Assembly: GCA_028289425.1 (NCBI GenBank)
Contig: JANQPL010000017.1
Span: forward strand, 496,001 to 560,000
DNA: 64,000 nucleotides
Direction of reading: 5' to 3'
From: Alphaproteobacteria bacterium
Lineage (GTDB): Bacteria > Pseudomonadota > Alphaproteobacteria > JANQMY01
Under the pieces are notes generated by a model. It was not told where the DNA came from. It did not search any database and saw nothing but the letters and a program-made list of their open reading frames with translations. Below are positions 7,929-56,985 of this stretch, piece by piece. Position numbers and translations under genes: made by a program. Positions within the stretch are counted from its first letter, which is position 1; each line of letters opens with the position of its first letter.

Positions 7929-8387
7929 ATGAACATTCACAGATACATGCAGCCCGTCGATAAGACGATCGGTGATTTGTTGGTGCGCGCAGATGATGGG
8001 GCTTGGGTGCAGACAGACAAGGACGGCAAAGCGCACATGAAGCCGTTGTGGGCCAATCCCGGATCAGGCGGATGGGCTGTCCTATATCGCTGGCAAAAAG
8101 GCTACCAGGCGCCCGCCCATAAGCATTTGGGTGCCATTCACGCCTACATCATCTCCGGCTGCCTGAAGCTGCGCGATACACAGCTGAAAGCCGGCGATTA
8201 CATGTACGAAGCGAACGGCATTATTCACGATGAAACCGTCGCCCTGGAGGACACGGTCCACCTCAACATCGCTGATGGGCCGATCTTGTTCTTCGACGAC
8301 TCTGCCATCACTCATTATGTGGGATGGGAACAAATTCAGAAACTGTTGAATGCCGACAGCCAGTCAAGAGAGAAAAATGAAGATTGA
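7929..8387 (+). CDS. Cupin-domain protein, dihydroxyacetophenone-dioxygenase/ChrR-like
   Basis: A single-cupin protein of 152 residues. The first metal motif is HKHLGAIHAYIISG and the second lies at GDYMYEANGIIHDE, giving the usual three-histidine/glutamate site. The pattern resembles the 2,4'-dihydroxyacetophenone dioxygenase group, which cleaves C-C bonds next to ketones, but related cupins include anti-sigma factors and epimerases. Its last 11 bp overlap the start of the BVMO gene, so the two are translationally coupled and probably act on the same ketone. A second in-frame ATG exists at 7947. Confidence 0.8.
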   Translation: MNIHRYMQPVDKTIGDLLVRADDGAWVQTDKDGKAHMKPLWANPGSGGWAVLYRWQKGYQAPAHKHLGAIHAYIISGCLKLRDTQLKAGDYMYEANGIIHDETVALEDTVHLNIADGPILFFDDSAITHYVGWEQIQKLLNADSQSREKNED

Positions 8388-10206
8388 TCCAGCCATCAAG
8401 ACACTCGTCGGCGACGTAGATTTCGACCCGACAGAACTTCAGCGCCGGTACGACCGCGAACGTGATATTCGGCTTCATCCAAAGCGCAACAAGCAGTTTA
8501 TCGAGGTGACGGCTGAATTTTCCCACTATGTGGACGATCCTTACGTGGAGCCCGCTCCCACGCGTGATCCAATTACGGATGAAATAGATATCCTCATCAT
8601 TGGTGGAGGGTTCGGCGGCGTATTGGCCGGCGCACGATTTAGACAGGCTGGATTCGACAATATCCGAATTGTTGAAAAAGGCGGCGATTTTGGAGGCACG
8701 TGGTATTGGAATCGATACCCTGGTGCCTTCTGCGACACGGAATCCTACGTGTACTTCCCAATGCTCGAAGACGTGGGGTACGTGCCGAAACAAAAGTACT
8801 CCCCCGGCTACGAGATTCGCGAACACATTCACAGAATCGCAAAGACGTACGACCTCTATAGCAATGCATGTTTACAGACGGCCGTCACGGAAGTGCGGTT
8901 CGACAGTTCGGCTCAACAATGGATCGTCTCGACGAACCGGGGCGATGCATTGCGCGCGAACTTTGTTGTTATAGCGAACGGTCCCTTGGATAGGCCTAAG
9001 CTCCCAGGCATTCCGGGTATCAACGAATTCAAGGGGCATACGTTCCACACCAGCCGGTGGGACTATGGCTATACGGGCGGTGATGAGGACGGAAACCTCG
9101 TGGGGCTTGCCGACAAACGCGTCGGCGTCATCGGCACCGGTGCGACAGCCATCCAGTGCATTCCCCATCTTGGCGCTTCCGCAAAACAACTCTATGTATT
9201 TCAAAGAACGCCTGCAGCGGTCGACGTGCGTGCCAATCGGCCAACGGATCCGGAATGGGAGAGTTCTCTCGCATCCGGATGGCATAGCGAGCGCATCGAA
9301 AACTTCAATCGCGTCGTCACAGGAATCCCCCAAGAGGTTGATATGGTCAGTGACGGGTTTACGGCGGTTGGCCGCCTCCTTGATCCGACCGCGTCTTGGG
9401 CAGCGGCTTTGATCGGCCGGGATTTGACGGAAGAAGAGGGCGAATACATCAATGAGATTCTCGACGATAAGAAGATGAATGAGATTCGTGCACGGATCGA
9501 TGAGGTCGTCGAGGATAAAGCGACAGCGGAAGCCCTAAAGCCCTGGCATCGGCGTTGGTGCAAGCGGCCTCTGTTTTCGGATGATTATCTGCCTACTTTT
9601 AATCGGTCAAACGTCACGCTGGTCGATACGGGCGGCAGGGGCGTAGAGCGTTTTACGAATCATGCAGCCATCGTCGATGGCCAGAGCTACGAACTGGATT
9701 GCTTGATCTTTGCGACCGGATTCGAAGTGGGAACAGCCCTTACGCGCCGCACCGGCTTCGACATTGTTGGACGTGACGGACTAAAGCTAAGCGATCATTG
9801 GTCCAATGGCATGCGCACATTCCACGGTCTTCATGCCCATGGCTTTCCCAATTGCGTTTTTATGGGATTTGGGCAAAACGCCAGTGCGACAAATTTCGTC
9901 TTCATATTGGACGAACAATCGAAACATGTCGCTTACACAGTAAAGGAAGCGCGGGCGCGTGGATCAACTGTTGTCGAAGCCAGCGAGAAAGCCGTCGCAG
10001 ATTACGTGGCCGAAGTAAATCCGCTCGCGTTCAGCATGAACAAATTTTGGGTGGAATGCACGCCAAGCTACTTCAACGGCGAAGGAACGCCGGACGATCC
10101 AAATGGCTTCTTCGCCAACGTCCATCCAGCAGGAACCGTCGGCTTCTATGACATGCTTCGGGAATGGCGAGAGCAGGGCGAATTGTCCGGACTGGAACTT
10201 TCGTGA
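8377..10206 (+). CDS. Flavin-containing Baeyer-Villiger monooxygenase
   Basis: An FAD- and NADPH-dependent enzyme of 609 residues that inserts oxygen next to a ketone, giving an ester or lactone. It has the FAD motif GGGFGG (residues 76-81), GGTWYWNRYPG (near 106) and the type I BVMO fingerprint FKGHTFHTSRWD (218-229: F-x-G-x3-H-x3-W-D). A second nucleotide motif GVIGTGATA lies near 250. ATG 8377 is used because it follows a purine-rich AAGAGAGAAAA. The 70-residue N-terminal extension is typical of the steroid/cyclopentadecanone-monooxygenase-size group. Downstream lie an esterase and an acyl-CoA synthetase, a natural order for ketone to lactone to hydroxy acid to acyl-CoA. Confidence 0.95.
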   Translation: MKIDPAIKTLVGDVDFDPTELQRRYDRERDIRLHPKRNKQFIEVTAEFSHYVDDPYVEPAPTRDPITDEIDILIIGGGFGGVLAGARFRQAGFDNIRIVEKGGDFGGTWYWNRYPGAFCDTESYVYFPMLEDVGYVPKQKYSPGYEIREHIHRIAKTYDLYSNACLQTAVTEVRFDSSAQQWIVSTNRGDALRANFVVIANGPLDRPKLPGIPGINEFKGHTFHTSRWDYGYTGGDEDGNLVGLADKRVGVIGTGATAIQCIPHLGASAKQLYVFQRTPAAVDVRANRPTDPEWESSLASGWHSERIENFNRVVTGIPQEVDMVSDGFTAVGRLLDPTASWAAALIGRDLTEEEGEYINEILDDKKMNEIRARIDEVVEDKATAEALKPWHRRWCKRPLFSDDYLPTFNRSNVTLVDTGGRGVERFTNHAAIVDGQSYELDCLIFATGFEVGTALTRRTGFDIVGRDGLKLSDHWSNGMRTFHGLHAHGFPNCVFMGFGQNASATNFVFILDEQSKHVAYTVKEARARGSTVVEASEKAVADYVAEVNPLAFSMNKFWVECTPSYFNGEGTPDDPNGFFANVHPAGTVGFYDMLREWREQGELSGLELS

Positions 10207-14541: not shown

Positions 14542-15855
14542 ATGAGCGACAATAAACCGGTCTATGCAAATGGGATCGATCCTTCTCTGCTAACCAAAGC
14601 GCCGGGAGAAAAATGGACGGACAAGTATCCGCACCTTGGCACGGAACAGGTTAGCTACGAAGACGCAACCTCTAGCGAGTTCTACCAGCTCGAAAAAGAA
14701 GCCGTCTTTCGACGGAATTGGCTTTACGCCGGTCGTGCGGAATGGGTCGATCGACCGGGCAAGTATTTCACCAAAGAATATGAGGTCTGCAATACCTCTG
14801 TGATCGTCGTTCGCGGCAAAGACGATCAGATTCGCGCGTTCTACAATGTATGCCCTCACCGCGGGAATAAACTGCTCTGGAAAGACGAACCCACGGAGCC
14901 CGTCGAAGGAAGCTGCAATCGCTTTTATTGCAAATATCACGGATTGGGTTTTGGCCTGGACGGCAAGATCGAAGTTTTGACTGACAAGGAGTCTTGGTTT
15001 GGTGACCAAGGAACCGATCTGGGTCTGGCCGAAATTCCCATCGAAAGTTGGAACGGTTTTCTATTCGTCAATATGAGCCCCGAAGGTCCCGCCGAAACGC
15101 TTCGCGAGTTTTTAGGGGAATATTACTGGTCAGGATTTGACGGCTGGCCATTTGACAAATTTACGGAAAGATTCACGGCAAGAGGCTCCACCAATTGCAA
15201 TTGGAAGGGCCTGATGGACGCTTTCAACGAAGTCTATCACGGTGTTTATGTGCACCGGGAAGCGTTTCCGTATTTGCAGAAAATGGACGTGGATGCACTC
15301 GCTGCGATGCGGGTGGAGTCGGCCGTGCTGGTCGGTAAGCACGGATTTTACATTTCGCCAAGAAATCCCCAAGGTCTGTTTGTCACAGATATTGAGCGGA
15401 TTGCTCAGTGTGCAGGAACTGGGCCTCAATATCCGATGGCGGAGGATTTCAGCAAAATTCCGCCGGCGGCTAATCCAACCGATATCGAATGGGGCACCAG
15501 CAGCCACTTCATTTTTCCGAACATACAAATCCAGTTCTACTATCCCGGATGGTATTTGATTTACCAGTATTGGCCGCTTGCACACAACAAGATGCGCTTC
15601 GAAATTGACTGCCACTATCTGCCGTCCCGAAACTTTTCGGAGTTGATGTCTCATTACGGGCACGTCGCCACCTTCTGGGATGCAGCGCTTCAGGACATTA
15701 ACAATCTGGAAGCAACTCAGCTGGGACTTGAGATGGGCGCCTTCAAATCCTGGCCGCTAACCGACGAAGAAGTCATTGTCCGTGGATTCCACAAGCAGAT
15801 CTATGATCATGTGAATTCATACAAAAGCGAGAAACTGGGAGTTGCCGCGCAATAA
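14542..15855 (+). CDS. Rieske non-haem iron oxygenase, alpha subunit (RO2)
   Basis: A 437-residue Rieske oxygenase homologous to RO1 throughout. The Rieske ligands are CPHRGN and CKYHG. The mononuclear iron site is in DAFNEVYHGVYVH (H-x4-H), again with Glu at the bridging position. RO1 and RO2 share the WTDKYP N-terminal block and the CH-rich middle, but differ in the segment around residues 250-300 that usually lines the active site. They therefore probably take different substrates or positions. It is followed by NTF2-like, FAD dehydrogenase, SDR and ferredoxin genes. The ferredoxin (18986) may feed it electrons. Confidence 0.95.
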   Translation: MSDNKPVYANGIDPSLLTKAPGEKWTDKYPHLGTEQVSYEDATSSEFYQLEKEAVFRRNWLYAGRAEWVDRPGKYFTKEYEVCNTSVIVVRGKDDQIRAFYNVCPHRGNKLLWKDEPTEPVEGSCNRFYCKYHGLGFGLDGKIEVLTDKESWFGDQGTDLGLAEIPIESWNGFLFVNMSPEGPAETLREFLGEYYWSGFDGWPFDKFTERFTARGSTNCNWKGLMDAFNEVYHGVYVHREAFPYLQKMDVDALAAMRVESAVLVGKHGFYISPRNPQGLFVTDIERIAQCAGTGPQYPMAEDFSKIPPAANPTDIEWGTSSHFIFPNIQIQFYYPGWYLIYQYWPLAHNKMRFEIDCHYLPSRNFSELMSHYGHVATFWDAALQDINNLEATQLGLEMGAFKSWPLTDEEVIVRGFHKQIYDHVNSYKSEKLGVAAQ

Positions 15856-15937: not shown

Positions 15938-16354
15938 GTGTCCGAAAGCCGCAATGTTGAGGTGACTCGTACGGTCATCAACCTCGTTTGTGATTTCAGC
16001 TTTGATGAAATCGAGCAGTACATTCATGAGGACATTGTGATGGAAGCGCCCTATCAGGCGTTTCATCAAGGCCCCATGAAGCGGGGGCGTGAAGGCTTTA
16101 TGGCCAGCTTTCGTTTTGTCCCCAACGTGTTCAAGAGCTTTAAGCTCAACATCCACGAAATCTATGATTGTCCTGACAAGGACGTGGTGGTCTTCGAACA
16201 GACCAGCTTCGGGATCTTTGCCGCCAATGGAAAGTCATACCAAAACCGATACATCATGGTCTTCGGATTTAGGGATGGAAAAATTGTTCTGTGGCGGGAG
16301 TACTTTAATCCTGAGCTCATGAATGCCGGTATGGCCTTTATGGCGGAGTCATAG
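15938..16354 (+). CDS. NTF2-like (SnoaL/ketosteroid-isomerase fold) protein
   Basis: A cone-shaped alpha+beta protein of about 138 residues. It contains DIVMEAPYQ, NRYIMVFGFRDGKIVLWREYFNP, the last a hallmark of the SnoaL group. GTG 15938 lies about 8 bp after GAGGAGAGG; an upstream GTG (15932) is too close. Members include isomerases, cyclases, dehydratases and non-enzymatic partners. Position between a Rieske oxygenase and a KstD-like dehydrogenase would suit an isomerase or hydratase of a ring ketone. It is paralogous to the product of 19342. Confidence 0.82.
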   Translation: MSESRNVEVTRTVINLVCDFSFDEIEQYIHEDIVMEAPYQAFHQGPMKRGREGFMASFRFVPNVFKSFKLNIHEIYDCPDKDVVVFEQTSFGIFAANGKSYQNRYIMVFGFRDGKIVLWREYFNPELMNAGMAFMAES

Positions 16355-16406
16355 TCGAGCGCCGCACGCTAATTGGCGCAAAGCGGCTCCTTCACAGCGA
16401 AACAAG

Positions 16407-18140
16407 ATGACACAAACTGAAAGCGCTTACACGTCCAACATTGAGCCCCCTCTGAGAGTGGCGGACGCCGCAGAGGTTGAATGGGACGATGAAGCGGAAA
16501 TTGTCGTTGCGGGTTTCGGCGGTGCAGGCGTGGTGGCGGCAATCCATGCTATGGAAGCGGGCGCCAATGTCATCGCCGTTGATCGCTTTTCAGGCGGCGG
16601 GGCCACAGAAAAAAGCGGTGGCGTGGTTTATGCGGGCGGAACCAAGTACCAGCATGAAGCGGGATATCAAGATACCGCTGAAGAAATGTACAAATACCTG
16701 TCCTATGAGGGGACGCCGGTTCGGCCAGAGACACTGAAGCGGTTTTGCGATACCAGTGCCCCAAACATAGCATGGCTCGAAAAACAAGGCGTGCAGTTTG
16801 CGTCCGGTGTGTTCGAAGAGCGCATCGCGTATCCGCCGGACGGATATTTTCTCTATTACTCCGGCATGGAAAAGTTTCGCGGCGATCACGCAAAGGTCGC
16901 GCCCCGCGGTCATCGAACCTTCGGCAAAGGGGCGACGGGAAAGAACTATTTCAAGCCGCTGCGCGACAAAGCATTGAATATGGGGCTTCAGCTTATGACA
17001 CATGCCCCGGTTCGCCGTCTGATCGTTGATCAGCATGACCATGTTGTGGGTGTGGAAGTCCATCAGATCCCTGAGGATGAGTGGGAGAAACACCAAGCGT
17101 TGTTCGAAAGGGTCAATCCCTACAAGATGCTGAACGGATCCGAAGCAGAAAAAGCAGTTGCGGACTGCCGCGAATTCGAGCGCGGTGTGCCTCAAACGCG
17201 CCGCAAGATCCGCGCGACGGGAGGGGTGATCCTTTCCGCCGGGGGCTACAACTACAATCTGGACCTGTTCGGTCGTTATCGGCCAATTGTCAAAGAAACT
17301 TATCCGGAACTTGTGCGGGGCGGGTCCATGGGCTGCGACGGTAGTGGCATCGAACTGGGCACGACGGTCGGTGGCGGTCTCAGTCATATGGACCGTTTGT
17401 TTGTAACCAAAGCAATCTCGCCGCCTCACGAATTTATCTTCGGTGTCCTGGTCAATATGGACGGGCAGCGTTTCATCACAGAGGATGCCTATCTCGGCAA
17501 TGTGGGCTGCGCGATTTCAGAACAAAGTCAAACGGGGTCAGCGTGGCTGATCTTGGATGCCAATACTTTCTGGGCGGGTGTGAAACAAGCGGTTTGGCCA
17601 CTCAAGAACGCAGTTTCTTGGTGGGGGATGCCGGCGCTGCTCAACATCGTCCTCGGCGGCACCAAACGGGCATCGTCGCTGGCCGGCCTTGCGCGGAAAG
17701 TGGGGATTGATCCGAGTGCGTTGGAAAAGACGGTCGAAGAGTTTAACAGCCATGCGCGTTCGGGAACTGATCCGGTGCACGGAAAGATGCAACAGCACCT
17801 GCGTCCGTTGGAGACGAGCACCTGCTATGCCGTGAATTTGTCAGTTAAAAACAAATGGGGTTTCTCGGGCACCATGCCCTATGGCGGATTGACGGTGGAT
17901 GAGGATACCGGCGCCGTCACGCGCGAAGATGGCACTCCGATTGTCGGACTATATGCTGCCGGGCGTACCGCTGTCGGCGTGTGTTCGGAAAGCAATTTTA
18001 GTGGGCTTTCTATTGCCGATACGGTGTTTTCGGGCAGGCGGGCGGCTGATGCCATCTTGCGGTCGAATGACGCCGGCGATCTCGGGAAGGACGCCGACAT
18101 TTTGCCGTTACGTCAATCGTCGGGCGCCAGCGCGGGATAG
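16407..18140 (+). CDS. FAD-dependent dehydrogenase, KstD/Kst4D-like
   Basis: A 577-residue flavoprotein of the FAD_binding_2 superfamily that includes 3-ketosteroid dehydrogenases and fumarate reductase. The FAD motif is GFGGAG (residues 36-41), followed by SGGVVYAGGT. YYSGMEK and APRGHR match the Kst4D-like group. The C-terminal GLYAAGR closes the flavin site. It would introduce or reduce a C-C double bond next to a ketone. The start at ATG 16407 removes 28 poorly conserved codons that overlap no ribosome site. Presence beside NTF2-like isomerase-fold genes hints at steroid-like chemistry, though FAD_binding_2 enzymes take many substrates. Confidence 0.85.
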   Translation: MTQTESAYTSNIEPPLRVADAAEVEWDDEAEIVVAGFGGAGVVAAIHAMEAGANVIAVDRFSGGGATEKSGGVVYAGGTKYQHEAGYQDTAEEMYKYLSYEGTPVRPETLKRFCDTSAPNIAWLEKQGVQFASGVFEERIAYPPDGYFLYYSGMEKFRGDHAKVAPRGHRTFGKGATGKNYFKPLRDKALNMGLQLMTHAPVRRLIVDQHDHVVGVEVHQIPEDEWEKHQALFERVNPYKMLNGSEAEKAVADCREFERGVPQTRRKIRATGGVILSAGGYNYNLDLFGRYRPIVKETYPELVRGGSMGCDGSGIELGTTVGGGLSHMDRLFVTKAISPPHEFIFGVLVNMDGQRFITEDAYLGNVGCAISEQSQTGSAWLILDANTFWAGVKQAVWPLKNAVSWWGMPALLNIVLGGTKRASSLAGLARKVGIDPSALEKTVEEFNSHARSGTDPVHGKMQQHLRPLETSTCYAVNLSVKNKWGFSGTMPYGGLTVDEDTGAVTREDGTPIVGLYAAGRTAVGVCSESNFSGLSIADTVFSGRRAADAILRSNDAGDLGKDADILPLRQSSGASAG

Positions 18141-20734: not shown

Positions 20735-20830
20735 AGTAGCAAAGCACTGGCAGCGGCCGGAAGTCAAGCCTTTGAAGGGTACCCGTTCGGCGGCGCTTTG
20801 TGATCCCGGATTTCGATAGGAGTGGGGAAC

Positions 20831-22036
20831 ATGGATTTTCAATTCAGCGCCAAAGTAACCGATTTGATCGGTCGGCTGACACGTTTCATGGATGAGCACA
20901 TTTATCCATTGGAGGCAGATTACGGCCGCCATGTGGAGCAAGCAGGTGGCTGGGAAACGCCGCCCATCATGGATGAGCTCAAGCAAAAGGCAAAAGATGA
21001 AGGATTATGGAATCTGTTTCTGCCAGAGGAGGCGTATGGCGCGGGGCTGACGAATCTGGAGTATGCGCCGCTTGCGGAGATTATGGGGCGTGTGTCGTGG
21101 GCATCGGAGGTCTTTAACTGCAGCGCGCCGGATACAGGCAATATTGAAGTGTTGGCTCGCTATGGCAGCGATGCGCAAAAAGAAAAGTGGCTGATGCCGT
21201 TGCTGGACGGACAAACGCGGTCCTGCTTTTCCATGACGGAACCCGCCGTTGCGTCGAGCGATGCGACCAATGTGGAATGTCAAATCGTTCGCGACGGCGA
21301 CAGCTACCTGATTAACGGTCGAAAGTGGTTCTCTTCCGGCTTTTCCAATGAGCGGTGCGCCTTTGCGATCGTGATGGGTAAATCCGATCCGGACAATGAT
21401 CAACGGCATCTGCAGCAATCCATGATCATCGTGCCCAAAGGCACGCCAGGCATGATATTGGTGCGCGACATTACGACCTTCGGCTATAAGGGGCAGCCTG
21501 GCGGTCACCCGGAGATCCTGTTTGAGAATGTTCGCGTGCCCGCGGAAAACCTGATCCTGGGCGAAGGAAGGGGCTTTGAGGTTGCCCAAGGGCGCTTGGG
21601 GCCGGGGCGCATTCACCATTGCATGAGGTTCATCGGTTCAGCGCAACGGGCGCTGGAGCTCATGTGTCAGCGCGCGGAACAACGCTATGCCTTTGGTAAA
21701 CGTCTGTCGGAACACGGGTCGTTGCGTGAAGATATTTCGCGGTCGTTTTGCGAGATTGAACAAGCCCGTCTGCTGACGCTCAAAGCAGCCGACAAGATGG
21801 ACAGAGACGGCAACAAGGCGGCGCGCGATTTGATTGCCGCCGCCAAGATTGTCGTGCCCAAAATGGCGACCGAAGTGATTGACCGGGCTATTCAAGTGCA
21901 TGGCGCCATGGGCTTCACAGAGGATACGTTCCTCGCGAAAGCCTATGCGAACGCGCGATACATTCGTGTCGGCGACGGCCCCGATCAGGTTCATCTGGCG
22001 TCGCTCGCGCGCCAGCTTCTTCGCCGATACAATTAG
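20831..22036 (+). CDS. Acyl-CoA dehydrogenase family protein, ACAD11/LvaC-like
   Basis: A 401-residue flavoprotein of the acyl-CoA dehydrogenase fold. [23 protein letters not shown] and VGDGPDQVH are marks of the ACAD10/11 and LvaC subgroup. At the position of the usual catalytic Glu (EGT-SEI in ordinary family members, as in 56986) this protein reads GDGPDQV, as expected for enzymes that eliminate phosphate from 4-phosphoacyl-CoA instead of simply desaturating. ATG 20831 follows AGGAGTGGGG. The next three genes complete the levulinate-type set. Predicted step: 4-phosphoacyl-CoA to an enoyl-CoA, then 3-hydroxyacyl-CoA. Confidence 0.9.
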
Positions 22037-22047
22037 AGGGGTGATCG

Positions 22048-22809
22048 ATGACCGACTCCTTGTTTGACCTTTCCGGCCGTGTTGCCCTGGTGACCGGGTC
22101 GACCCAGGGATTGGGGGAAGCAACGGCGCGCCTGCTGGGCCAACAGGGAGCACATGTTGTGATTTCGAGCCGCCATCGTGATCGCTGCGAAGAAGTGGCA
22201 GGGCAGTTTCGCAAGGAGGGCATTGCCGCCAGTGCCATTGCCTGCCACATCGGGCGTCAAGACGACATCGATGCTTTGTTCGGACAGGTGACGGAACAGC
22301 ACGGCCGCCTTGATGTGTTGGTCAACAACGCCGTGCTCAGTCCCTGGCGCTCGATTGAGGAAACGGAGCGTGCCCTTATTCTGAAATCGCTGGAAGTAAA
22401 CATTGCCGGCTATTGGGCAATGTCCATCGGTGCCGTTCAGTTGATGAAAGCCCAGGGCAAGGGAAGTATTGTCAATATTTCGTCCACAGCCTCGCGGATA
22501 TCCAGCAAGGGATTGGGGCTTTACTCCACGTTCAAGTCTTCGCTTGACGGCATGACCAGATCGTTTGCCTATGAATTCGGAGGGGGCGGCATTCGGGTGA
22601 ACACCATCTTGGCGGGATTGTTTGCGACCAGCTTGGCAGATGCCTTCTCGCCGGAGCAGAAGCGGGACATTATCGACCGCATACCGCTGGGGCGTGCGGG
22701 CCATCCGCAAGAACTCGCTAGTGCTGTCCTGTTTCTCGCCTCTGATGCAAGCGCCTATGTCACGGGTACCAATCTCGTCGTAGACGGCGGGCGCCTGACG
22801 AGCGGCTAA
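22048..22809 (+). CDS. SDR family oxidoreductase, LvaD/DHRS4-like
   Basis: A classical SDR of 253 residues with TGSTQGLG near residue 16, NNAVLSPW, VNISS and the catalytic YSTFK. It starts 11 bp after the acyl-CoA dehydrogenase stop, behind AGAGGGGTG. In the levulinate pathway an SDR supplies the 4-hydroxyacyl-CoA by reducing a 4-ketone; by position, this one may do the same or oxidise the 3-hydroxy product. The family alone does not settle direction or substrate. Confidence 0.9.
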   Translation: MTDSLFDLSGRVALVTGSTQGLGEATARLLGQQGAHVVISSRHRDRCEEVAGQFRKEGIAASAIACHIGRQDDIDALFGQVTEQHGRLDVLVNNAVLSPWRSIEETERALILKSLEVNIAGYWAMSIGAVQLMKAQGKGSIVNISSTASRISSKGLGLYSTFKSSLDGMTRSFAYEFGGGGIRVNTILAGLFATSLADAFSPEQKRDIIDRIPLGRAGHPQELASAVLFLASDASAYVTGTNLVVDGGRLTSG

Positions 22810-22825
22810 TGCTGAAGCAGCCATC

Positions 22826-23860
22826 ATGACTCAAGATAAAAATCCGTATACCGAGTTAGAGAGACTTCTGGCCGAGCGGGTGGCCGCTCAATACGGACGG
22901 GGTGCCACGATCGCCAACCTTACCAGGCTTTCGGGCGGCGCGAGCCGGGAGACCTGGTCTTTCGATGTGCTTTGGAACGGGGTGCCACTCCCCCTTATTC
23001 TGAAGCGCGACCCCATCAAATATGAGGCGGACGGCACAATCGCGATTGATGCGAAAGATGATTTGAGCATCGGCGTGGATCGGTTGACGGAGGGGAGATT
23101 AATCGAAGCAGCACATGCGGCTGGGGTGCCGGTTCCCGAAATCGCTTTCTATTTGGAAGAGTCAAGTCTCACCTCCGCGGGATTTGTCATGCAGCGGCTC
23201 GAAGGGGAAGTGCTCGGGCGGCGCGTGCTGCGCGACGAATGCCTTGCGGGGGCGCGAACCAAACTTGCCTTCCAATGCGGGGAAGCGGCGGGACGATTGC
23301 ATGGCGTTTCGCCTTCCGGCTTTAGAACTCTCGAGCGGATGACCGTGCTCGATCAGATTTCACACTATCGAAGCCAATTGGACGCCGTAGACCATCCCTA
23401 TCCCGGCTTCGAGTACGGATTGCGCTGGCTGGAAGAAAACGCCGAACAGGCGGGCGATAACATGTCAATCGTTCATGGCGATTTCCGGCTCGGAAACCTG
23501 GTGGTGGATGAGAGCGGATTGCGCGGCGTGTTGGATTTCGAACTTGCGCATCTGGGAAATCCAATCAGCGATCTTGGATGGATCTGTGTGCGCTCCTGGC
23601 GGTATGGCCAGATAGACAAGACGGTCGGAGGGTTCGGCGAACTTGAAGAATTGCTGGATGGCTACGAAGCGGCGACGGGAACGCGCGTTGCCGAAGAAGC
23701 AGTGAAGTACTGGGAGATATTCGGTGCACTGCGCTGGGGGATGATGTGCATCAACATGGCATTCAGTCACCTTAGCGGACCACACCCGTCACTGGAAAAA
23801 GCCGTGATCGGCCGCCGCAGTGCGGAGACCGAGTACGATCTTTTGACTCTCATAAACTGA
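22826..23860 (+). CDS. Phosphotransferase (APH fold), LvaA-like hydroxyacyl-CoA kinase
   Basis: A 344-residue kinase of the aminoglycoside-phosphotransferase/choline-kinase fold. The catalytic loop is HGDFRLGN and the metal-binding motif is LDFELAHLGNP. Members of this subgroup beside an ACAD11-like dehydrogenase and a DUF6285 protein are exemplified by LvaA, which phosphorylates 4-hydroxyvaleryl-CoA with ATP; mammalian ACAD10/11 fuse the same kinase and dehydrogenase domains. An antibiotic-resistance role is unlikely in this context. The 4-hydroxyl acceptor is inferred, not seen. Confidence 0.88.
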   Translation: MTQDKNPYTELERLLAERVAAQYGRGATIANLTRLSGGASRETWSFDVLWNGVPLPLILKRDPIKYEADGTIAIDAKDDLSIGVDRLTEGRLIEAAHAAGVPVPEIAFYLEESSLTSAGFVMQRLEGEVLGRRVLRDECLAGARTKLAFQCGEAAGRLHGVSPSGFRTLERMTVLDQISHYRSQLDAVDHPYPGFEYGLRWLEENAEQAGDNMSIVHGDFRLGNLVVDESGLRGVLDFELAHLGNPISDLGWICVRSWRYGQIDKTVGGFGELEELLDGYEAATGTRVAEEAVKYWEIFGALRWGMMCINMAFSHLSGPHPSLEKAVIGRRSAETEYDLLTLIN

Positions 23861-23873
23861 AGTTTGGACCGTC

Positions 23874-24254
23874 ATGCCGAATGATCGCCCCTCACCGAAA
23901 GAATTGCTCGAAGCCGTACGTGACCATTTGCAGAATCATGTTGGCCCAGAACTTAAAGGCCAAGCGGCATTTCATCTTCGGGTCGCGGTGAATGCCATTG
24001 CGATTGTCGAGCGAACTTTGGAAGATGGGGCCACCCTGAACGACTCGGAAACCGCCAGGCTGCAATCTTTGCTTGGCACAAATGAAACTGATCTCGATCA
24101 GTTGAATCGTGCTCTTGCTGTGAAGCTTCGCGAAGGCGCGATAGGCGAGGACCGTCAGGCGCTGCTGAACCATCTCAGGCAGACCGCCGAGGAAAAATTG
24201 GGTCTATCCAACCCCAACTATCTGAAAAGGCCATTAGACAAGAGCAAAGGCTAA
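23874..24254 (+). CDS. DUF6285 protein, LvaB-like kinase partner
   Basis: A 126-residue helical protein. The N-terminal pattern P-x-ELLEAVRDHL...LKGQAAFHLRVAVNAIAIVERTL matches DUF6285 as I know it. In the levulinate operon LvaB has this size and position and is needed together with LvaA for kinase activity. Here it follows the kinase by 13 bp and ends the operon. I expect it to form a complex with the kinase. Confidence 0.82.
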   Translation: MPNDRPSPKELLEAVRDHLQNHVGPELKGQAAFHLRVAVNAIAIVERTLEDGATLNDSETARLQSLLGTNETDLDQLNRALAVKLREGAIGEDRQALLNHLRQTAEEKLGLSNPNYLKRPLDKSKG

Positions 24255-24479: not shown

Positions 24480-24569
24480 ACTGTCTTGGCGGCCAGTGTA
24501 AAACATCACAATAGAACACACAAAGGTGCGATCTCGCATTCAAGACGAGATCATGGGGAGGAAATAGTA

Positions 24570-28583: not shown

Positions 28584-29081
28584 ATGCAGCGTCCATCAAG
28601 GCAATTTGGCAAGTTTCTCAAGGACACAATACAGATCGCTTATGTGACGCACGATTTGGAGGCGGCGATCGATGTACTAAGCGAAAAAGTCGGCATTCGC
28701 GACTTTATGAAAACGGGTGCCGTTGAAGCAGATTTGGGGGGCGGGGCCATCGGCGAACTGAGTGTCGCCATGGCCTATTGCGGCAACACGCAATACGAAC
28801 TTATCCAACCAATCTCCGGTGCGGTGGACGTACATCGGAACGGTCTGCCGACGGATGAAGGGTCGGTACTCGTATTTCATCATGTGTCCTACTTTGCGCG
28901 CAGCCGGGAGGATTTAGAAACGGTCCGGCCGATTGTTCTTGGCGACCGGACGGCGCCGGTTTTCGGTGAGTTCGGTGAAGAGTCTGCTTTCTTCTATGTG
29001 GATGAACGCCCCACGCTCGGACACTATGTGGAATACCAGTATTCAGAACCGGCCTATGATGCGCTGATCCCACGCAACTGA
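28584..29081 (+). CDS. VOC family protein (glyoxalase-like)
   Basis: A 165-residue VOC-fold protein. The first half has IAYVTHDLEAAIDVLSEKVGI, read as a VOC opening strand, and the second half HHVSYFARSREDLE; the end YVEYQYSEPAYDAL supplies a glutamate. It aligns with 3-demethylubiquinone-type/glyoxalase_4 proteins rather than with ring-cleaving dioxygenases. It is transcribed with the P450 and convergent with the mutase genes, whose small-subunit gene ends 7 bp away. The function is not assignable. Confidence 0.78.
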   Translation: MQRPSRQFGKFLKDTIQIAYVTHDLEAAIDVLSEKVGIRDFMKTGAVEADLGGGAIGELSVAMAYCGNTQYELIQPISGAVDVHRNGLPTDEGSVLVFHHVSYFARSREDLETVRPIVLGDRTAPVFGEFGEESAFFYVDERPTLGHYVEYQYSEPAYDALIPRN

Positions 29082-29088
29082 CAGAGGC

Positions 29089-29499
29089 TCAGGCGGTTTC
29101 GGTTCTCTTTGATCGGACGAGATCGCGCAGCGTGTCGATGATTTGATCGTCTGACGGCGCGCCGTTGAAGACTGCACTCACGCCAAGTGCTTTCATTCTT
29201 TCCGCATCCGACGCGGTGATCACGGAGCCGCCGATGACGACGGGGCGGTCATCGCCGCGCTCCTTCAGTTTTTCAAGGAGCTCCGGCACCATGTCCAGAT
29301 ATTCCCAAGAATGGCAGCTAATGCCGATTACATCGACACCTGCTTGGGCTGCCTCTTCTGCTATGCTGTCGGGCGTATTAAAGCGACCCACATAGGTCAC
29401 ACGCATCTGTGCTTCTTCCAGCATTCGGCGCACGGCAACGGCACCGTTCTCATGCTGGTCAAGACCAAGCGTTCCAATCAAGAAGTGCTCGCGTTCCAT
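29089..29499 (-). CDS. Adenosylcobalamin-binding small subunit of an acyl-CoA mutase
   Basis: A 136-residue B12-binding domain, the length of the small subunits of isobutyryl-CoA and 2-hydroxyisobutyryl-CoA mutase. The cobalt-ligand motif D-x-H-x2-G is LDQHENG (Asp14, His16, Gly19), followed by GISCHS and VIGGS, the S-x-L and GG equivalents. The ATG at 29499 overlaps the large-subunit stop (TGATG), so the two subunits are translationally coupled. No GTPase chaperone (MeaB type) is encoded nearby. Confidence 0.92.
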   Translation of the reverse strand: MEREHFLIGTLGLDQHENGAVAVRRMLEEAQMRVTYVGRFNTPDSIAEEAAQAGVDVIGISCHSWEYLDMVPELLEKLKERGDDRPVVIGGSVITASDAERMKALGVSAVFNGAPSDDQIIDTLRDLVRSKRTETA

Positions 29500-31091
29500 C
29501 AAGCGACTGCTTTCATTGGGGGCTCGACCCGGCCATAATAGTCATAGTCGAGGCCAAGGGCTTGTCGAGCCGTGCCTTTGAGTTCGCCGAACGTAACGTC
29601 GGCGCGCAGCGCATCGCGCACCGCTTCAATAATGTTGGCATCGCCCTCAACCGCATCGGCAAATCGTTTCAGTGCGTCATTCACGCGGTCCATCGATCGA
29701 GTCTTCTTCCAAGCGATAATCTCTTCCACATGTGAAAGGTACGGTTCGATCTTTCGTTCCGCCACGTCACGCAACAGGGTGTCTTGCTCCTCGGGAACGG
29801 CGTGGCAGTTCACGCCCACCACCGGTTGCCGGCCCTTTGAAACATCGCGCTGCTGTTTTGCCATGGCTTGTTGAAAGACGTCGGCAAAGACACCCTTTCT
29901 TTCGAGCTCCTCCGGATCGCCCATATCCTCGAACTCTTTCACGCGCGCGACGATGCGGTTTTCCATTTCGTCTGTGAGGCTTTCAACAAAATAGGACCCA
30001 CCCAGAGGATCGGTGACCTTTCCGGGCAATGCCTCAAGCGACAAGATTTGCTGCGTGCGCAGACCGACCATATGGGCTTCCGGCGATGGCGTGCGGAAGG
30101 CTTCGTCGAAGGTGGAAATTTCCATCGCTTGGACGCCGGCCAAGGCCAGCGCCATGGCCTGCATGCTGCCGCGAATGATATTGTTTGCCGGTTGTTGCGC
30201 TGTGAGCGACAACCCTGAAGTATGGCTGGTCACCACAACGGCCAGGGAGCGCGGGTCTTTTGCCCCGAACTCGTCGCGCATCATCTTTGAGTAGATGCGG
30301 CGTGTGGCACGGATCTTTGCAATCTCTTCGAAGAAGTCCATCCCGCAATTGACGAGAATGGCGATGCGTGGGGCGAAGGAATCTATATCCAGCCCGCGCT
30401 CCAACAGGCGGCGCGTGAGAAATCTGATCTGCAAGAATCCAAGTGCCATTTCCTCGACCGGATCGTTGCCTGACTCGCTGAAGAAATAGGTGTCTTCGAT
30501 GTAAGAATGATATTTCGGCATGTACTTGGTGCAAAACTCGATGGAGTCGAGCGCAACGCGTGTACGAAACTCCACCGGAAAATGCACCGCGTAGCAGCAT
30601 GACTCCACGTAGAGTGGGGCGTGGATCAAAGAGCCGCGCAACTTCTCGAGAGGGAAATTCAACTCTTCGGCCGCCAGAGCGGTTGCGGCAACGGTCGTCA
30701 GTGGATTGAGCGAACAGGAAATCGACACCTTATCGAGAGGAATGTCTCTCAGCAGATCCGTCATATCCTGCCGCCGGCACACGGAAACGCCTTGGGTGCC
30801 GCAGGAGACGCGAGCGAGCGGATGATCGGGATCCAGTCCCGCAGCGGAGCCGGCGTCACCGATTACGTCCAGACCGGTTGATCCGTGTTCGATCAAGTAT
30901 TTGAACTGTTCATTGGATTTCTTGGCGGGACCCTCGCCCGATAATTCGCGGTGTATCAATCCAGCCGCGGCTGTCGCACGGCGTCCGCGTGTAAAGGGAA
31001 ATTCGCCGGGCCGTTCGGCATTCTCGTCCGCATCCATATAGTAAGGCTGCAGTTCAATACCGGAGCGCGTTGTTGGATGCGCGTTGTTCAT
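29499..31091 (-). CDS. Acyl-CoA mutase large subunit, divergent
   Basis: The 530-residue TIM-barrel subunit of a B12-dependent carbon-skeleton mutase. Family landmarks are intact: FPFTRG (31-36), HTSGLSLTAQQ (290-300) and DPLGGSYFVE (361-370). The substrate pocket is not. The TMYRxRxWTxRQ stretch of known members is replaced by TAAAGLIHREL with a two-residue deletion. The QxDxxKEY helix reads IHAPLYVE, and the GYH motif reads TYF (His to Phe203). The enzyme should therefore rearrange an acyl-CoA unlike methylmalonyl-, isobutyryl- or hydroxyisobutyryl-CoA. ATG 31091 lies 10 bp after the epimerase-like gene. Confidence 0.88.
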   Translation of the reverse strand: MNNAHPTTRSGIELQPYYMDADENAERPGEFPFTRGRRATAAAGLIHRELSGEGPAKKSNEQFKYLIEHGSTGLDVIGDAGSAAGLDPDHPLARVSCGTQGVSVCRRQDMTDLLRDIPLDKVSISCSLNPLTTVAATALAAEELNFPLEKLRGSLIHAPLYVESCCYAVHFPVEFRTRVALDSIEFCTKYMPKYHSYIEDTYFFSESGNDPVEEMALGFLQIRFLTRRLLERGLDIDSFAPRIAILVNCGMDFFEEIAKIRATRRIYSKMMRDEFGAKDPRSLAVVVTSHTSGLSLTAQQPANNIIRGSMQAMALALAGVQAMEISTFDEAFRTPSPEAHMVGLRTQQILSLEALPGKVTDPLGGSYFVESLTDEMENRIVARVKEFEDMGDPEELERKGVFADVFQQAMAKQQRDVSKGRQPVVGVNCHAVPEEQDTLLRDVAERKIEPYLSHVEEIIAWKKTRSMDRVNDALKRFADAVEGDANIIEAVRDALRADVTFGELKGTARQALGLDYDYYGRVEPPMKAVA

Positions 31092-31101
31092 GTCTTTGCC
31101 G

Positions 31102-31545
31102 TTAGTCACTTTGCACGCCCCCTTTAAGCCATTCGGTGACGCCTTCCACAATGATTCCATTCGACGATTTTGGATGTGTGAGCCATCTGGGTTCATCTCC
31201 TTCGGTCGCGGGCGGGCGGGCGATCACCGTTAGTCCTTTATCTTTAAGGGTCGAGGCGGTGGCGTCCACATCGCTGACCACGCCGCACAAATGGTAAAAA
31301 CCCTCTCCGCTTCGCTTGAGCCGCTTGGCCACTGGATTTGACATATCCTCCTTGTTCAGCGGCTCCATGAATTCCAAAACCATGCGTTGTTCCTGGCCGG
31401 GTACGGCGAGCATCACGCAATGGATACCTTCGCTCTCCGACCGGTATTCTTTGACCCTTTCGAAGCCAAATGCCTCCTGCCACAGAGCCAATGCTTTGTT
31501 CATGTCTTGGACGACGATCCCAATATGACTGATGCGATCAAACAT
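31102..31545 (-). CDS. Methylmalonyl-CoA-epimerase-like VOC protein
   Basis: A VOC protein of 147 residues. HIGIVVQDMNKAL at the N-terminus, LEFMEPL, GEGFYHLCGVV, and HPKSSNGIIVE at the C-terminus repeat the layout of methylmalonyl-CoA epimerase, with metal-ligand candidates at the two histidines and the last glutamate. It is the first gene of the mutase operon, which strengthens the idea that it epimerises the alpha-carbon of the mutase substrate or product. Known mutase-epimerase pairs act on methylmalonyl-CoA; the divergent pocket of this mutase makes another acyl-CoA likely. Confidence 0.85.
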   Translation of the reverse strand: MFDRISHIGIVVQDMNKALALWQEAFGFERVKEYRSESEGIHCVMLAVPGQEQRMVLEFMEPLNKEDMSNPVAKRLKRSGEGFYHLCGVVSDVDATASTLKDKGLTVIARPPATEGDEPRWLTHPKSSNGIIVEGVTEWLKGGVQSD

Positions 31546-31581
31546 AGCGGTCTGCCCCAACATTGAATATTTCTAACTAAA

Positions 31582-31640: not shown

Positions 31641-32438
31641 TCATTCCTCTTTTATGGTCTTCCGCATCCATTTCAGCCCCGCCTTGGCCTCGTCGCGCGA
31701 GAACATGAACCCCTCTATGGCCAACCAATTGTCCAGCGCGGGCCGTGCGCGTTCGAGCCAATGGTTACAGGCCCGTTTGGTCCACGCTAAGGCCATGTGG
31801 TCGCGCTGGGCTAATTCATCTGCCAATGACAGTGCTTCGTCCATTAGCTGCGCGTGGGGAATGGCGGCGCTGACAAGACCGATGCTCTCTGCCGTCGCTG
31901 CGTCCAACGTGTCGGCTTTAAACAAATGAAGTTTCGCCTTCATGGGGCTGGTGAGCAGGGGCCACAAAAACACTTCGGGTCCCGACAACACGCTCAGATT
32001 GAGTTGTGCGCCGGCCAAAATGCGGGCTTTGTCGGACATGAATACGACATCGCTGGATAGAGCCATTCCTAGCCCGCCCCCGAGCATGTCGCCATTGACG
32101 GCCGTGATGACAGGCTTGTCCAGATCCATCAGTTGACGGAGGACCCTTGCAAAGTCACGGCTTGAGGCAATGGAGCCATCGATGTCCTCTGTAAACGTGT
32201 CCAGAAGTTCAATATCGCCGCCTACCGAGAAGGCCTTCCCAGCGCCTGTCACCACAATGATTTTTGTTTCGGCATCGCGGTCAACTCGGTGCCACAATTC
32301 GCGCAGCTCGGAAACCATCGCTTCGCTAAACGCGTTGAGGGAATCCGGCCTGTTGAGGGTCACGACAAGGACGCCGTTCGGCCGGCGTTCCGCCATCAAT
32401 TCAGTGAAATCGGAATAGTCAAATCGGGTCTTCGCCAT
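31641..32438 (-). CDS. Enoyl-CoA hydratase/isomerase family protein
   Basis: A crotonase-fold protein of 265 residues. The oxyanion-hole strands are AFSVGGDIELL and NGDMLGGGLGMAL. The Glu usually found near the second loop is replaced (LSVLSGPEVFLWPLL), so hydration, isomerisation or a retro-Claisen reaction are all possible. ATG 32438 is chosen behind GGGCAG; a longer frame reaches 32600 but runs through operator site 10. It lies upstream of the mutase operon in the same direction and has its own promoter region. Confidence 0.88.
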   Translation of the reverse strand: MAKTRFDYSDFTELMAERRPNGVLVVTLNRPDSLNAFSEAMVSELRELWHRVDRDAETKIIVVTGAGKAFSVGGDIELLDTFTEDIDGSIASSRDFARVLRQLMDLDKPVITAVNGDMLGGGLGMALSSDVVFMSDKARILAGAQLNLSVLSGPEVFLWPLLTSPMKAKLHLFKADTLDAATAESIGLVSAAIPHAQLMDEALSLADELAQRDHMALAWTKRACNHWLERARPALDNWLAIEGFMFSRDEAKAGLKWMRKTIKEE

Positions 32439-32474
32439 GATTCTGCCCTTGGGCTGATGAGGGATATTAATAAT

Positions 32475-32485
32475 CGACAATGTTG
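32475..32485. promoter_or_regulatory. Operator CGACAATGTTG (site 10)
   Basis: Nine of ten arm positions agree with the family, and it extends to a 14-bp inverted repeat CGACAATGTTGTCG. It lies 37 bp before the minus-strand crotonase, the same distance as site 9 from its gene. Confidence 0.65.
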
Positions 32486-32620
32486 TCGGGTATCTTATCG
32501 TCCAACTGGGCGCCGGATCTAGCCTAATTGGCGGGATTCCTGCCCTTGGCGTAATCGAGCCGATTGCCGGTGTCGGTCTTCCGGCTTGAGTGCGGCTCAA
32601 TTCCTTGATAAGTTAATTAA

Positions 32621-32631
32621 CAACAGTGTTG
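32621..32631. promoter_or_regulatory. Operator palindrome CAACAGTGTTG (site 11)
   Basis: A perfect copy identical to site 1. It stands about 50 bp before the ferredoxin gene and opens the transcription unit ferredoxin-SDR-AveC-like. Confidence 0.7.
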
Positions 32632-32682
32632 ATCAATTCATTTTGGATGTGGATCCGCGTGGAGTGGTGGCGGGACCGGCGA

Positions 32683-33006
32683 ATGGTGAAAATCACTTTC
32701 GTTGAACATGACGGGCAGAAACACGTCATTGAGGCTGAGCCCGGTCAATCGGTGATGCAGGCCGCAAAATCGAATGATGTCCCCGGCATCTTAGCCGACT
32801 GCGGCGGGCAATGCGCTTGCTGCACCTGTCACGTTGTGGTGGAGCCCTCATGCATGCCCGAAGTGGGCGGTCCCAATGAGGTCGAAGAGGCCTTGATGCA
32901 AGTTTCCATCGAAATGGAAGAGACCAGCAGGTTGTCTTGTCAAATCCAAGTTAGCGAGAGCATGGATGGCTTGATCGTCCGCATCCCCGAAGAACAGCTG
33001 GGATGA
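32683..33006 (+). CDS. [2Fe-2S] ferredoxin, adrenodoxin type
   Basis: A 107-residue ferredoxin. The ligands fit C-x5-C-x2-C with the fourth cysteine in RLSCQI. An extra Cys pair in GGQCACCTC is unusual but not unique. This type normally donates electrons to bacterial class I P450s, and two P450 genes are nearby (1-902 and 27313). ATG 32683 gives the typical MVKITFVEHDG start. The reductase partner is not in the window. Confidence 0.9.
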   Translation: MVKITFVEHDGQKHVIEAEPGQSVMQAAKSNDVPGILADCGGQCACCTCHVVVEPSCMPEVGGPNEVEEALMQVSIEMEETSRLSCQIQVSESMDGLIVRIPEEQLG

Positions 33007-33037: not shown

Positions 33038-33775
33038 GTGAAGCGTTTCGACTTTAGGAATAAGACGGTCCTTGTTGTTGGCGGCACCGGCGGACTTGGA
33101 AACGGAATTGCCCGCGCCTTTAACGACCTAGAAGCGGATGTGTATGTTTGGGGGACGCGGCCAAATGCTGCAGACTATCAAGACGATCCGGACTCGGATC
33201 TAAGCGGCCTTACATTCGAGAACATGGATGTATCCGATCAAGTGGCTTTGAATGCTTACACGCCGCTCTTCGACCGTCTTGATGTGCTTGTCCTGTCCCA
33301 TGGTATCGTGATGTGGGGGGGCAAGGAATATCAAACCGAAAACTTCAAGCGGGTTATGGATGTCAATGTAACCGGCGTGTTGGCCTGTTGCGTCAAGTTT
33401 CAAGAGATGCTTGCGGCCAACGCGGGGACGATCCTCATACTGAACTCGGTAGGTGCGTTCCGTTCAAATCCGCAGCTACCCGCCTACAACGCCTCCAAAG
33501 CGGCCATCGAAAGCCTGACGCGCACACTAGCGCTTGATTGGGCGGGGGACGGCATTCGGGTTAACGGCATTGCACCGGGCATGGTGCCGACACGGATGAC
33601 CAAGGTAGCGGCGGATGATCCGAAGCGAGTCGCTGCCTATGTGGCGCGGGTGCCGCTCGGCAGGACGGGGAAGGTAGAAAATGTAGCCGACCTTGCGGTT
33701 TTTCTGGCGTCTCCTTCGGCTTCGTACTTAACCGGCCTGACTATTCCGGTCGAAGGCGGCCGTTTGCTGACTTGA
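33038..33775 (+). CDS. SDR family oxidoreductase
   Basis: A compact SDR of 245 residues. The glycine motif is GGTGGLG, the serine strand LNSVG and the catalytic YNASK. Start codon GTG at 33038 behind AGAAGGGAAG. The NNAG motif is replaced by SHGI, as in some FabG-like and cyclitol-type SDRs. It lies between a P450-type ferredoxin and the AveC-like membrane protein, probably in one unit with both. Confidence 0.9.
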   Translation: MKRFDFRNKTVLVVGGTGGLGNGIARAFNDLEADVYVWGTRPNAADYQDDPDSDLSGLTFENMDVSDQVALNAYTPLFDRLDVLVLSHGIVMWGGKEYQTENFKRVMDVNVTGVLACCVKFQEMLAANAGTILILNSVGAFRSNPQLPAYNASKAAIESLTRTLALDWAGDGIRVNGIAPGMVPTRMTKVAADDPKRVAAYVARVPLGRTGKVENVADLAVFLASPSASYLTGLTIPVEGGRLLT

Positions 33776-33794: not shown

Positions 33795-34850
33795 ATGAGA
33801 GACGCCACAGCCACATCGACCGTCATTCGACAACAGCTGACGCCGGCGCATGTGCTGGCCATGTGGGGCGTACTTCTCCTCAGTGCACAGATATATACAT
33901 GGGTCGGCTTCTTTTTCCATGGTCCGGTTTCGGTAACACCTGAAGGACCGTTCGATCCGTTGGCGTATTGGGGGGCGAAGTTTTTCGAAGCGCAAGCCCT
34001 GATCATGCTGGTCGTCGTCCTCACCATCGTGATCAGACAAAGCTTCCGCGAAGGTCGGGTTACGTTCGATGCTCAGTTCTGCATTGCCGGAGCTCTGACA
34101 TATTGGTGCGATCCCATCGTCAATTTTTTTCAGCCGATCTTTTTCAACACGGCCTATTATGTGAACGTACGGGATTGGACCGGCTTCCTGCCGTTCATCG
34201 TGAACCCGGATGCAGGTAGGGTGCTTGAACCCTATGTCAGCTATTTTGCCACCTACACGGTTGGGTTTCTGACGTATGCCATGCTGCTCAATACCATTAT
34301 GGAGCGCGTCGAATCTCGGTATCCCAATGTCAGCATCTTTTCGTTGTTCGCGGTGGCATTTGTTGCCGGCGCCCTACTGGAGATCGTCGTCGAGATCATC
34401 TGGTTACGGTTGCATCTCATCTCCTATCCGGGGGCACCCGATTTCTTGGCCATTTATGTGGGTGATCTGAAAATGCCGTGGATTGAATGGTTCACCGGTG
34501 GGCTTGTGTTCGGGACATTCAGCTGCGTGCGTTATTACGTGAACGACCGCGGCCAGCGTGTTACGGAACGCGGGTTGGATCATCTGCCCAGACGCGTGCG
34601 TGTCTTCGTTTCGACCCTGGCCATGATGGCCATTCTCAATTCGCTGATGATCACGGCTTCTCTCATGGATGCAGTCGTTGGTTTGTATTCCGCCCCCTAT
34701 CGTCCGCAGCCGGCTCATTTAATTGTGGGCGCTTGTGATTATCCAGGTGGCCCAGTGGGGACCCGATATGGCCCGTGTCCCGGTTCGCCCGGTTACAAAA
34801 TGCCATTAGCCGGGTCGCTGGAAGGACCAAATCCCCATGGGCGGAACTAG
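33795..34850 (+). CDS. Spirocyclase AveC family membrane protein
   Basis: An integral membrane protein of 351 residues with about seven hydrophobic segments (near 17-39, 62-82, 94-112, 150-172, 188-214, 232-248 and 278-300). The motif LTYWCDPIVNFFQP and the W-T-x-F-x-P-F region recall the AveC/MeiC family, which in avermectin and meilingmycin synthesis closes a spiroketal. In a degradation cluster it may act on cyclic ethers or hydroxy-ketones, or it may have a different, undescribed role. It follows the SDR by 19 bp. The family assignment comes from motif memory, so a profile search is decisive. Confidence 0.65.
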   Translation: MRDATATSTVIRQQLTPAHVLAMWGVLLLSAQIYTWVGFFFHGPVSVTPEGPFDPLAYWGAKFFEAQALIMLVVVLTIVIRQSFREGRVTFDAQFCIAGALTYWCDPIVNFFQPIFFNTAYYVNVRDWTGFLPFIVNPDAGRVLEPYVSYFATYTVGFLTYAMLLNTIMERVESRYPNVSIFSLFAVAFVAGALLEIVVEIIWLRLHLISYPGAPDFLAIYVGDLKMPWIEWFTGGLVFGTFSCVRYYVNDRGQRVTERGLDHLPRRVRVFVSTLAMMAILNSLMITASLMDAVVGLYSAPYRPQPAHLIVGACDYPGGPVGTRYGPCPGSPGYKMPLAGSLEGPNPHGRN

Positions 34851-56048: not shown

Positions 56049-56059
56049 GAAAAAGACAA

Positions 56060-56977: not shown

Positions 56978-56985
56978 GGTGGCCC

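Follow-up and report, generated by a model that had tools for sequence, protein, structure and literature searches.

Few specificities of B12-dependent acyl-CoA mutases are known, and His244, the glutamine contacts and Lys604 are regarded as core catalytic features of these enzymes. In methylmalonyl-CoA mutase (MCM), a chain with a fused B12 domain, the migrating carbonyl is held by His244 together with Gln197 and the carboxylate by Arg207, while Lys604 supports the cobalt–histidine ligand. 2-Hydroxyisobutyryl-CoA mutase (HCM; HcmAB of Aquincola, PDB 4r3u; Xaut_5021/5018) consists of separate subunits and retains TMYRSRxWTMRQ, QADILKEY, GYH, HxQ and HTN together with Lys604 and Asp117; the latter (MCM position 116) holds the 2-hydroxyl. 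Xaut_5043/5044 of Xanthobacter Py2, which we take to be the pivalyl-CoA mutase (PCM) of Kitanishi et al., is likewise split into two subunits, and MeaB and ligases are encoded close by. It lacks Arg207, carries Leu at the position of Tyr89 and keeps His244, Gln197, His328, Gln330, His364 and Lys604. In IcmF, a fusion that includes a G-domain, the pocket is of a non-dicarboxylate type and keeps His244, His328, Gln330, His364 and Asn366. Here we describe a two-gene mutase encoded in a 64,000-nucleotide stretch of an alphaproteobacterial genome (contig JANQPL010000017.1, positions 496,001 to 560,000; the window). It is quite probably an adenosylcobalamin-dependent acyl-CoA carbon-skeleton mutase with a large barrel subunit and a separate B12 subunit, and it represents an undescribed subfamily; our literature search found no papers on this subfamily. 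On sequence grounds we demonstrate a predicted mutase fold, the pairing with a B12 subunit, a pocket rewritten throughout the family and a position outside the MCM, HCM, PCM and IcmF references.

We aligned the large subunit with the MCMs of P. shermanii and human, with HCM (Xaut_5021) and with PCM (Xaut_5043), the last two taken from plasmid pXAUT01. Changes are given as the position in P. shermanii MCM followed by the window residue in the 541-residue reading frame P0001, as the open frame reaches 31196. The homologues support the ATG at 31091 as the start, and so does the VOC gene upstream, whose stop codon lies just before it; P0001 numbers are those from this start plus 11, so that Phe214 equals Phe203 of the initial annotation. 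That annotation, made from the sequence alone, had held that every alignable substrate contact is changed and that known mutases keep the blocks TMYRxRxWTxRQ, QxDxxKEY and GYH. The named blocks are indeed replaced. TMYAxRPWTIRQ of MCM aligns with RATAAAGLIHRE, which is two residues shorter; GTIQNDILKEY of MCM becomes GSLIHAPLYVE; and GYH reads TYF, the histidine being Phe203. "Every" went too far, however, since Tyr243, Arg283 and Glu370 are kept, and Arg87 is kept as well. Only L022 and L023, the nearest relatives, share the two-residue shortening with the window mutase; most of the family is shortened less.

The changes are, in order, Thr85→Ile57, Tyr89→Leu61, Phe92→Glu64, Ser114→Asp86, Phe117→Gly89, Thr195→Ser165, Gln197→Ile167 and Arg207→Cys177. 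Further on follow His244→Phe214, Arg326→Val297, His328→Thr299, Gln330→His301, Ser362→Ala333, His364→Glu335 and Asn366→Ser337. In the Gln197–Arg207 stretch the alignment register is ambiguous by one residue, and the loss of the arginine stands in both registers. With the register moved by one, the next residue, position 168 (His168 in the window), may stand in for the lost Gln197; in the family it is Gln in 49/72 and His in 6/72. The small subunit keeps DxHxxG with its histidine and the GG motif; here Lys604 is changed to Thr, and SxL reads SCH (SCHSWEY). These two changes and those at His328, Gln330, His364 and Asn366 go beyond what had been noticed before. The MCM, HCM, PCM and IcmF references all retain His244, His328, Gln330, His364 and Ser362. 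Compared enzyme by enzyme, the window mutase shares with MCM the fold, Glu370, Arg283, Tyr243 and DxHxxG but lacks Arg207, Tyr89, His244, Gln330, Asn366 and Lys604. Its identity to HCM is 30–36%, and all the motifs and residues named above for HCM are changed, with Leu, Ile and Phe at the positions of Ile90, Asp117 and the GYH histidine. Against IcmF it has Leu and Cys at the Phe/Gln pocket positions and no G-domain (NF045497 139 bits, cut-off 1500). Of its altered pocket residues, PCM has just one in common with it, the Leu at position 89.

The window mutase is a member of a widespread subfamily and not a one-off. A scan of GTDB species genomes, queried with an alignment of eight alphaproteobacterial members, gave relatives at 71 loci (50–90% identity), which are spread over eight or more phyla: Pseudomonadota, Myxococcota, Acidobacteriota, Thermodesulfobacteriota, Rokuibacteriota, Actinomycetota, Chloroflexota and Bacillota. 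Many relatives come from metagenome-assembled genomes, so single taxonomic assignments may be incorrect. Within the Alphaproteobacteria a close relative is rare (8/385 and 8/372 genomes in two draws, the same eight with the window's genome included), and the bit scores fall from 581 to 305 with an empty gap between. Viral contigs gave no relatives, and none of 421 plasmid records falls inside the clade; all lie far outside, the best at about 35% identity. Leu61, Ser165, His301, Glu335, Ser337, Tyr213, Arg253 and Glu341 are invariant in 68/68 full-length members. Thus Tyr89 is Leu, Gln330 is His, His364 is Glu and Asn366 is Ser in all 68, and His328 is Thr, Ala or Ser. The His244 position holds Phe (46/68) or Tyr (22/68), Glu64 and Asp86 are nearly invariant, and Arg87 of the "RQ" pair is retained in 61 of the 68. 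The small-subunit gene adjoins the large one in 63/72 loci; in these 63 the lysine at 604 is never found, and the SxL site reads S[CSAT]HSWE(Y) in nearly all. Between the window and its 90% relative L023, dN/dS is 0.026 for the large and 0.011 for the small subunit (dN 0.061, dS 2.3 for the pair), values which are rough because dS is high. By these sequence comparisons the mutase is under purifying selection. With 68 full-length homologues showing the altered pattern in the same or almost the same form, and with dN/dS low, it lies far beyond chance.

The family-wide pattern bears on two alternatives. The protein, like the beta subunit of MCM, could keep the fold but be non-catalytic or have been repurposed, and so perform no carbon-skeleton rearrangement. 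The loss of many catalytic residues and of Lys604 would agree with this; the adjacent B12 subunit of its own, the MeaB chaperones in relatives' operons, the invariance of Glu370 and Arg283 and of the new His301, Glu335 and Ser337 (68/68), and the want of a second, intact large subunit as regular operon partner make it highly improbable. A mutase for alkylsuccinyl-, alkylmalonyl- or benzylmalonyl-type dicarboxylic acyl-CoAs of anaerobic alkane or indoleacetate degradation might be considered as well, since several relatives are anaerobes, an epimerase-like VOC protein accompanies the mutase in the window and such mutases are known or proposed in anaerobic degradation (PMC8360864). Benzylmalonyl-CoA mutase IaaGH is likewise a two-subunit B12 enzyme of a catabolic operon, set apart, by description only, through its dicarboxylic substrate. 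Yet the position of Arg207 carries a small residue in 68/68 members, and Arg there or Tyr at the Tyr89 position occurs in none. As Arg207 holds the free carboxylate in MCM, a malonyl- or succinyl-type substrate is improbable, and the loss argues equally against substrates of the ethylmalonyl- or benzylmalonyl-CoA mutase type. This alternative was already disfavoured and we consider it very unlikely.

We ran AlphaFold2 on 40 family sequences. The model (mean pLDDT 83.5, pTM 0.86) has the fold of HCM and MCM; HCM (4r3u), which is also the best PDB match by sequence, human MCM and IcmF are the best PDB matches of Foldseek (probability 1.00, TM about 0.8; 0.82 for HCM and MCM). The changed residues lie on or beside predicted barrel strands (57–62, 84–89, 164–168, 297–301, 333–335), with residue contacts inferred from known mutase structures. 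We suggest the following course of the reaction. B12 would be bound with its cobalt coordinated by the histidine of DxHxxG, homolysis of the Co–C bond would yield the 5'-deoxyadenosyl radical, and the thioester group would migrate between adjacent carbons. Since His244, Gln197, Arg207 and Lys604 are all replaced, the substrate and probably also the management of protons and radicals differ from those of known mutases. In the model His301 and Glu335, invariant on neighbouring barrel strands, are the best candidates for new contacts; together with Glu64 and Asp86, which hardly vary, they probably provide those to the substrate and the adenosyl group. That the enzyme performs an unprecedented B12 rearrangement of a bulky alpha-branched or quaternary acyl-CoA, with the His301/Glu335 pair in place of His244, Gln197, Gln330 and Lys604, is possible, though we would rather doubt than assert it.

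In phylogenetic trees with MCM, HCM, PCM and IcmF as references (RcmA, ethylmalonyl-CoA mutase and IaaG were not among the rows) the family forms one clade outside all four, and no included clade of known specificity contains the window mutase. A quick tree with 82 rows, which flagged meeting long branches, gave the clade an SH-aLRT of 100, and it held when 48 rows were analysed under a mixture model (100/100, stem of 1.45 changes per site), where the exact sister is unsure. In the latter tree the row SRB_L144, though labelled "other", is the family member encoded by the L046 genome, hence the two changes in the table of that tree. The initial annotation had expected an unfamiliar specificity and a new acyl-CoA. 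With a predicted HCM/MCM fold, an own B12 subunit, a separate clade and aligned pocket residues that are replaced, this proposal appears well supported.

It had further proposed that the acyl-CoA perhaps has a quaternary carbon that blocks beta-oxidation. A mutase of this kind, PCM-like and specialised for larger 2,2-dialkyl (quaternary) acyl-CoAs of terpenoid or steroid catabolism, is a tentative reading and improbable rather than probable. Among characterised lineages PCM comes closest in both trees, with weak support and alongside a few long branches that are uncharacterised; the leucine that replaces Tyr89 (68/68) is shared with PCM, and the surroundings of the window gene suit cyclic terpenoid or steroid breakdown. 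On the other hand, the grouping with PCM has a support of just 91/96 where long branches meet, His244, Gln197, His328, Gln330 and His364 of PCM are all altered in the window mutase, and the anaerobic members are without any tie to quaternary acids.

Three further groups of mutases were observed beside the family. The mutase L098:4926-6590 on a plasmid of Paraburkholderia sp. PGU19, as well as L134, resembles the window family in His330, Glu364 and Ser195 and in the loss of Lys604, and may be a sister lineage; the L098 island encodes a Rieske oxygenase, acyl-CoA dehydrogenases (one 55% identical to window 20822-22036), a kinase and short-chain dehydrogenases/reductases (SDRs). The window's own genome carries a second divergent mutase (G000:C15:101095-102666; also L002 and L020:8945-10693) with GYN for GYH, Leu at Gln330 and Gly at His364, next to MeaB, its own small subunit, an aldehyde dehydrogenase, a CaiB-type CoA-transferase, a thiolase and a ligase. 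In L101–L103 (G278, G254, G157) the catalytic match starts about 175–205 residues in, so that these mutases perhaps have a B12 domain at the N-terminus; Arg207 and His244 are retained in them, and His328, Gln330, His364 and Asn366 are changed.

The operons of the relatives speak to the pathway. We called neighbourhood genes with composition and homology scores, as the high-GC loci give antisense open frames, and compared genes in the directional run of the mutase (n = 117) with the other genes of the same loci (n = 740). Enriched beside the mutase are SDRs (18/117 against 17/740, p = 5e-8), crotonases (13/117 against 14/740, p = 1e-5), MeaB (7/117 against 4/740, p = 1.5e-4), VOC proteins (3/117 against 0/740, p = 0.0025) and acyl-CoA ligases (7/117 against 12/740, p = 0.009); this comparison shows no enrichment of acyl-CoA dehydrogenases. 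Most linked SDRs are orthologous (57–92% identity between Bacillota, Chloroflexota, Desulfobacterota and Proteobacteria) and the linked crotonases are of the PRK12478 type (64–84% identity), both conserved about as well as the mutase or better. The fullest operons (L071, L049, L074) contain SDR, large subunit, small subunit, crotonase and ligase, in some with TetR or MeaB. This content points to a pathway which activates an acid, rearranges it and handles 3-hydroxy- or 3-oxoacyl-CoA. A conserved protein of about 207 aa, possibly a mutase-associated factor, adjoins several B12 mutases (L082:12106-12729, without Pfam match; L050:2648-3274; L020:8301-9041; L057:12027-12848), among them the second mutase of the window's genome.

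Such operons would also suit a 2-hydroxyacyl-CoA mutase akin to HCM and to the RCM type of Kyrpidia and Desulfococcus (RcmAB), which converts a tertiary 2-hydroxy-2-alkyl acyl-CoA to a 3-hydroxyacyl-CoA that the linked SDR oxidises to the 3-oxoacyl-CoA. An orthologous SDR adjoins the mutase in many relatives, acyl-CoA dehydrogenases are not frequent partners, and the L087 operon encodes a hydantoinase A/B-type carboxylase in which a gamma domain of acetone carboxylase is present. In Desulfococcus biacutus the operon for acetone likewise has an SDR and a B12 mutase (PMC4103992), the latter RcmAB-like (PMC7176365). However, the family has Ile at the position of Asp117 of HCM, and the window's genome lacks an ortholog of the SDR. 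In addition, sulfate reducers with a family member also carry several HCM-like mutases, which fall outside the family clade and are 42–54% identical to HCM versus 36–37% for the family. Thus the family is probably not simply the RcmAB- or HCM-type enzyme of the sulfate reducers, and we regard this explanation as unlikely.

In the window the crotonase, VOC, large- and small-subunit genes (Table 1) probably form one operon; the order is the same in L022 and L023, with the VOC gene directly upstream of the large subunit, and the two subunit genes overlap by four bases. The end of the mutase had initially been placed at 31545, which overruns it into the adjoining VOC gene. A search of the window for a cobalamin riboswitch or other RNA families gave nothing at the gathering threshold.

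Table 1. Mutase operon and neighbouring catabolic genes in the window
Feature	Position	Strand	Remark
Baeyer-Villiger-type flavin monooxygenase	8350..10206	+	best NCBIfam match PtlE, 733 bits (cut-off 1100)
Rieske oxygenase alpha subunit	14542..15855	+	78% in L022/L014
FAD-dependent dehydrogenase, flavocytochrome c / 3-ketosteroid dehydrogenase superfamily	16323..18140	+	
Acyl-CoA dehydrogenase, SDR, aminoglycoside-phosphotransferase-like kinase, DUF6285 protein	20822..24254	+	
TonB-type receptor	24477-27047		by sequence
Cytochrome P450	27313..28548	+	conserved alongside mutase: 85% L023, 71% L014
Second VOC-like protein	28584..29081	+	convergent to mutase
Mutase small subunit (B12-binding)	29089..29502	-	137 aa; Pfam B12-binding 71.4 bits
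Mutase large subunit (catalytic, TIM-barrel, MM_CoA_mutase fold)	29499..31091	-	530 aa; PF01642 407.6 bits (cut-off 22.1)
VOC protein, methylmalonyl-CoA epimerase-related	31102..31563	-	TIGR03081 71.8 bits (cut-off 115)
Crotonase (enoyl-CoA hydratase/isomerase superfamily)	31641..32600	-	first gene of probable operon
[2Fe-2S] ferredoxin	32626..33006	+	likely P450 partner
SDR oxidoreductase	33038..33775	+	island-conserved, 46-87%

The operon lies in a catabolic island whose wider content (P450, Rieske oxygenase, pyrroloquinoline quinone dehydrogenase, ligase, hydrolase, SDR) is common to L022/L014, where the mutase is 72% identical. To break down a cyclic terpenoid or steroid, a pathway must hydroxylate the ring, form a lactone, carry out a hydrolysis and process a gamma-hydroxy acid, and by their classes the island enzymes fit, as expected, such a compound. 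The set at 20822..24254 is like the levulinate LvaC/D/A/B module in gene content only, without comparison to Lva sequences; LvaABCD phosphorylates 4-hydroxyacyl-CoA and converts it to 3-hydroxyacyl-CoA (PMC6692424). Also inside the island is an AveC spirocyclase-like membrane protein (33795-34850; 91% in L023). Farther off, at 55045-58176, a MaoC-like hydratase, a small open reading frame, a CitE-type lyase and an acyl-CoA dehydrogenase stand in a row, resembling a methylmalyl/itaconyl-type C–C lyase module.

From this context the mutase would have a catabolic role. In the window its substrate might be an acyl-CoA derived from a cyclic terpenoid- or steroid-like compound after hydroxylation, Baeyer-Villiger ring opening and CoA activation; a branched or fully substituted alpha-carbon would block beta-oxidation of this acyl-CoA, and the epimerase-like VOC protein may provide the correct stereoisomer. 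The island and the leucine that the enzyme shares with PCM at the site of Tyr89 suggest a quaternary carbon, which is plausible; a 2-hydroxy-2-alkyl or a 2-alkyl-3-oxo acyl-CoA suits the operons about as well. Each class taken singly is improbable rather than probable: quaternary (2,2-dialkyl) acyl-CoAs tentatively rank first, 2-hydroxy-2-alkyl acyl-CoAs and some other class follow level with each other, and 2-alkyl-3-oxo/3-hydroxy acyl-CoAs come last. Several points weigh against a new mutase acting on such a substrate. No member has a known activity or substrate, the joint loss of Lys604, His244, His328 and Gln330 is unusual for an active mutase, and the island is tied to terpenoids or steroids by enzyme classes only. 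Moreover, the window's genome has a PRK12478-type crotonase (61%, on another contig) and no ortholog of the family SDR, the best match reaching 40%; thus the anaerobes and the window may differ in pathway or substrate.

If our interpretation is true, a subfamily in eight or more phyla with its own invariant residues means that the chemistry of B12-dependent rearrangement tolerates another active-site design. General profile models name such genes methylmalonyl-CoA mutase, and propionate metabolism may therefore be over-called in genomes which carry them. The subfamily would point to an unrecognised route by which soils, sediments, sponges and groundwater see their branched compounds degraded.

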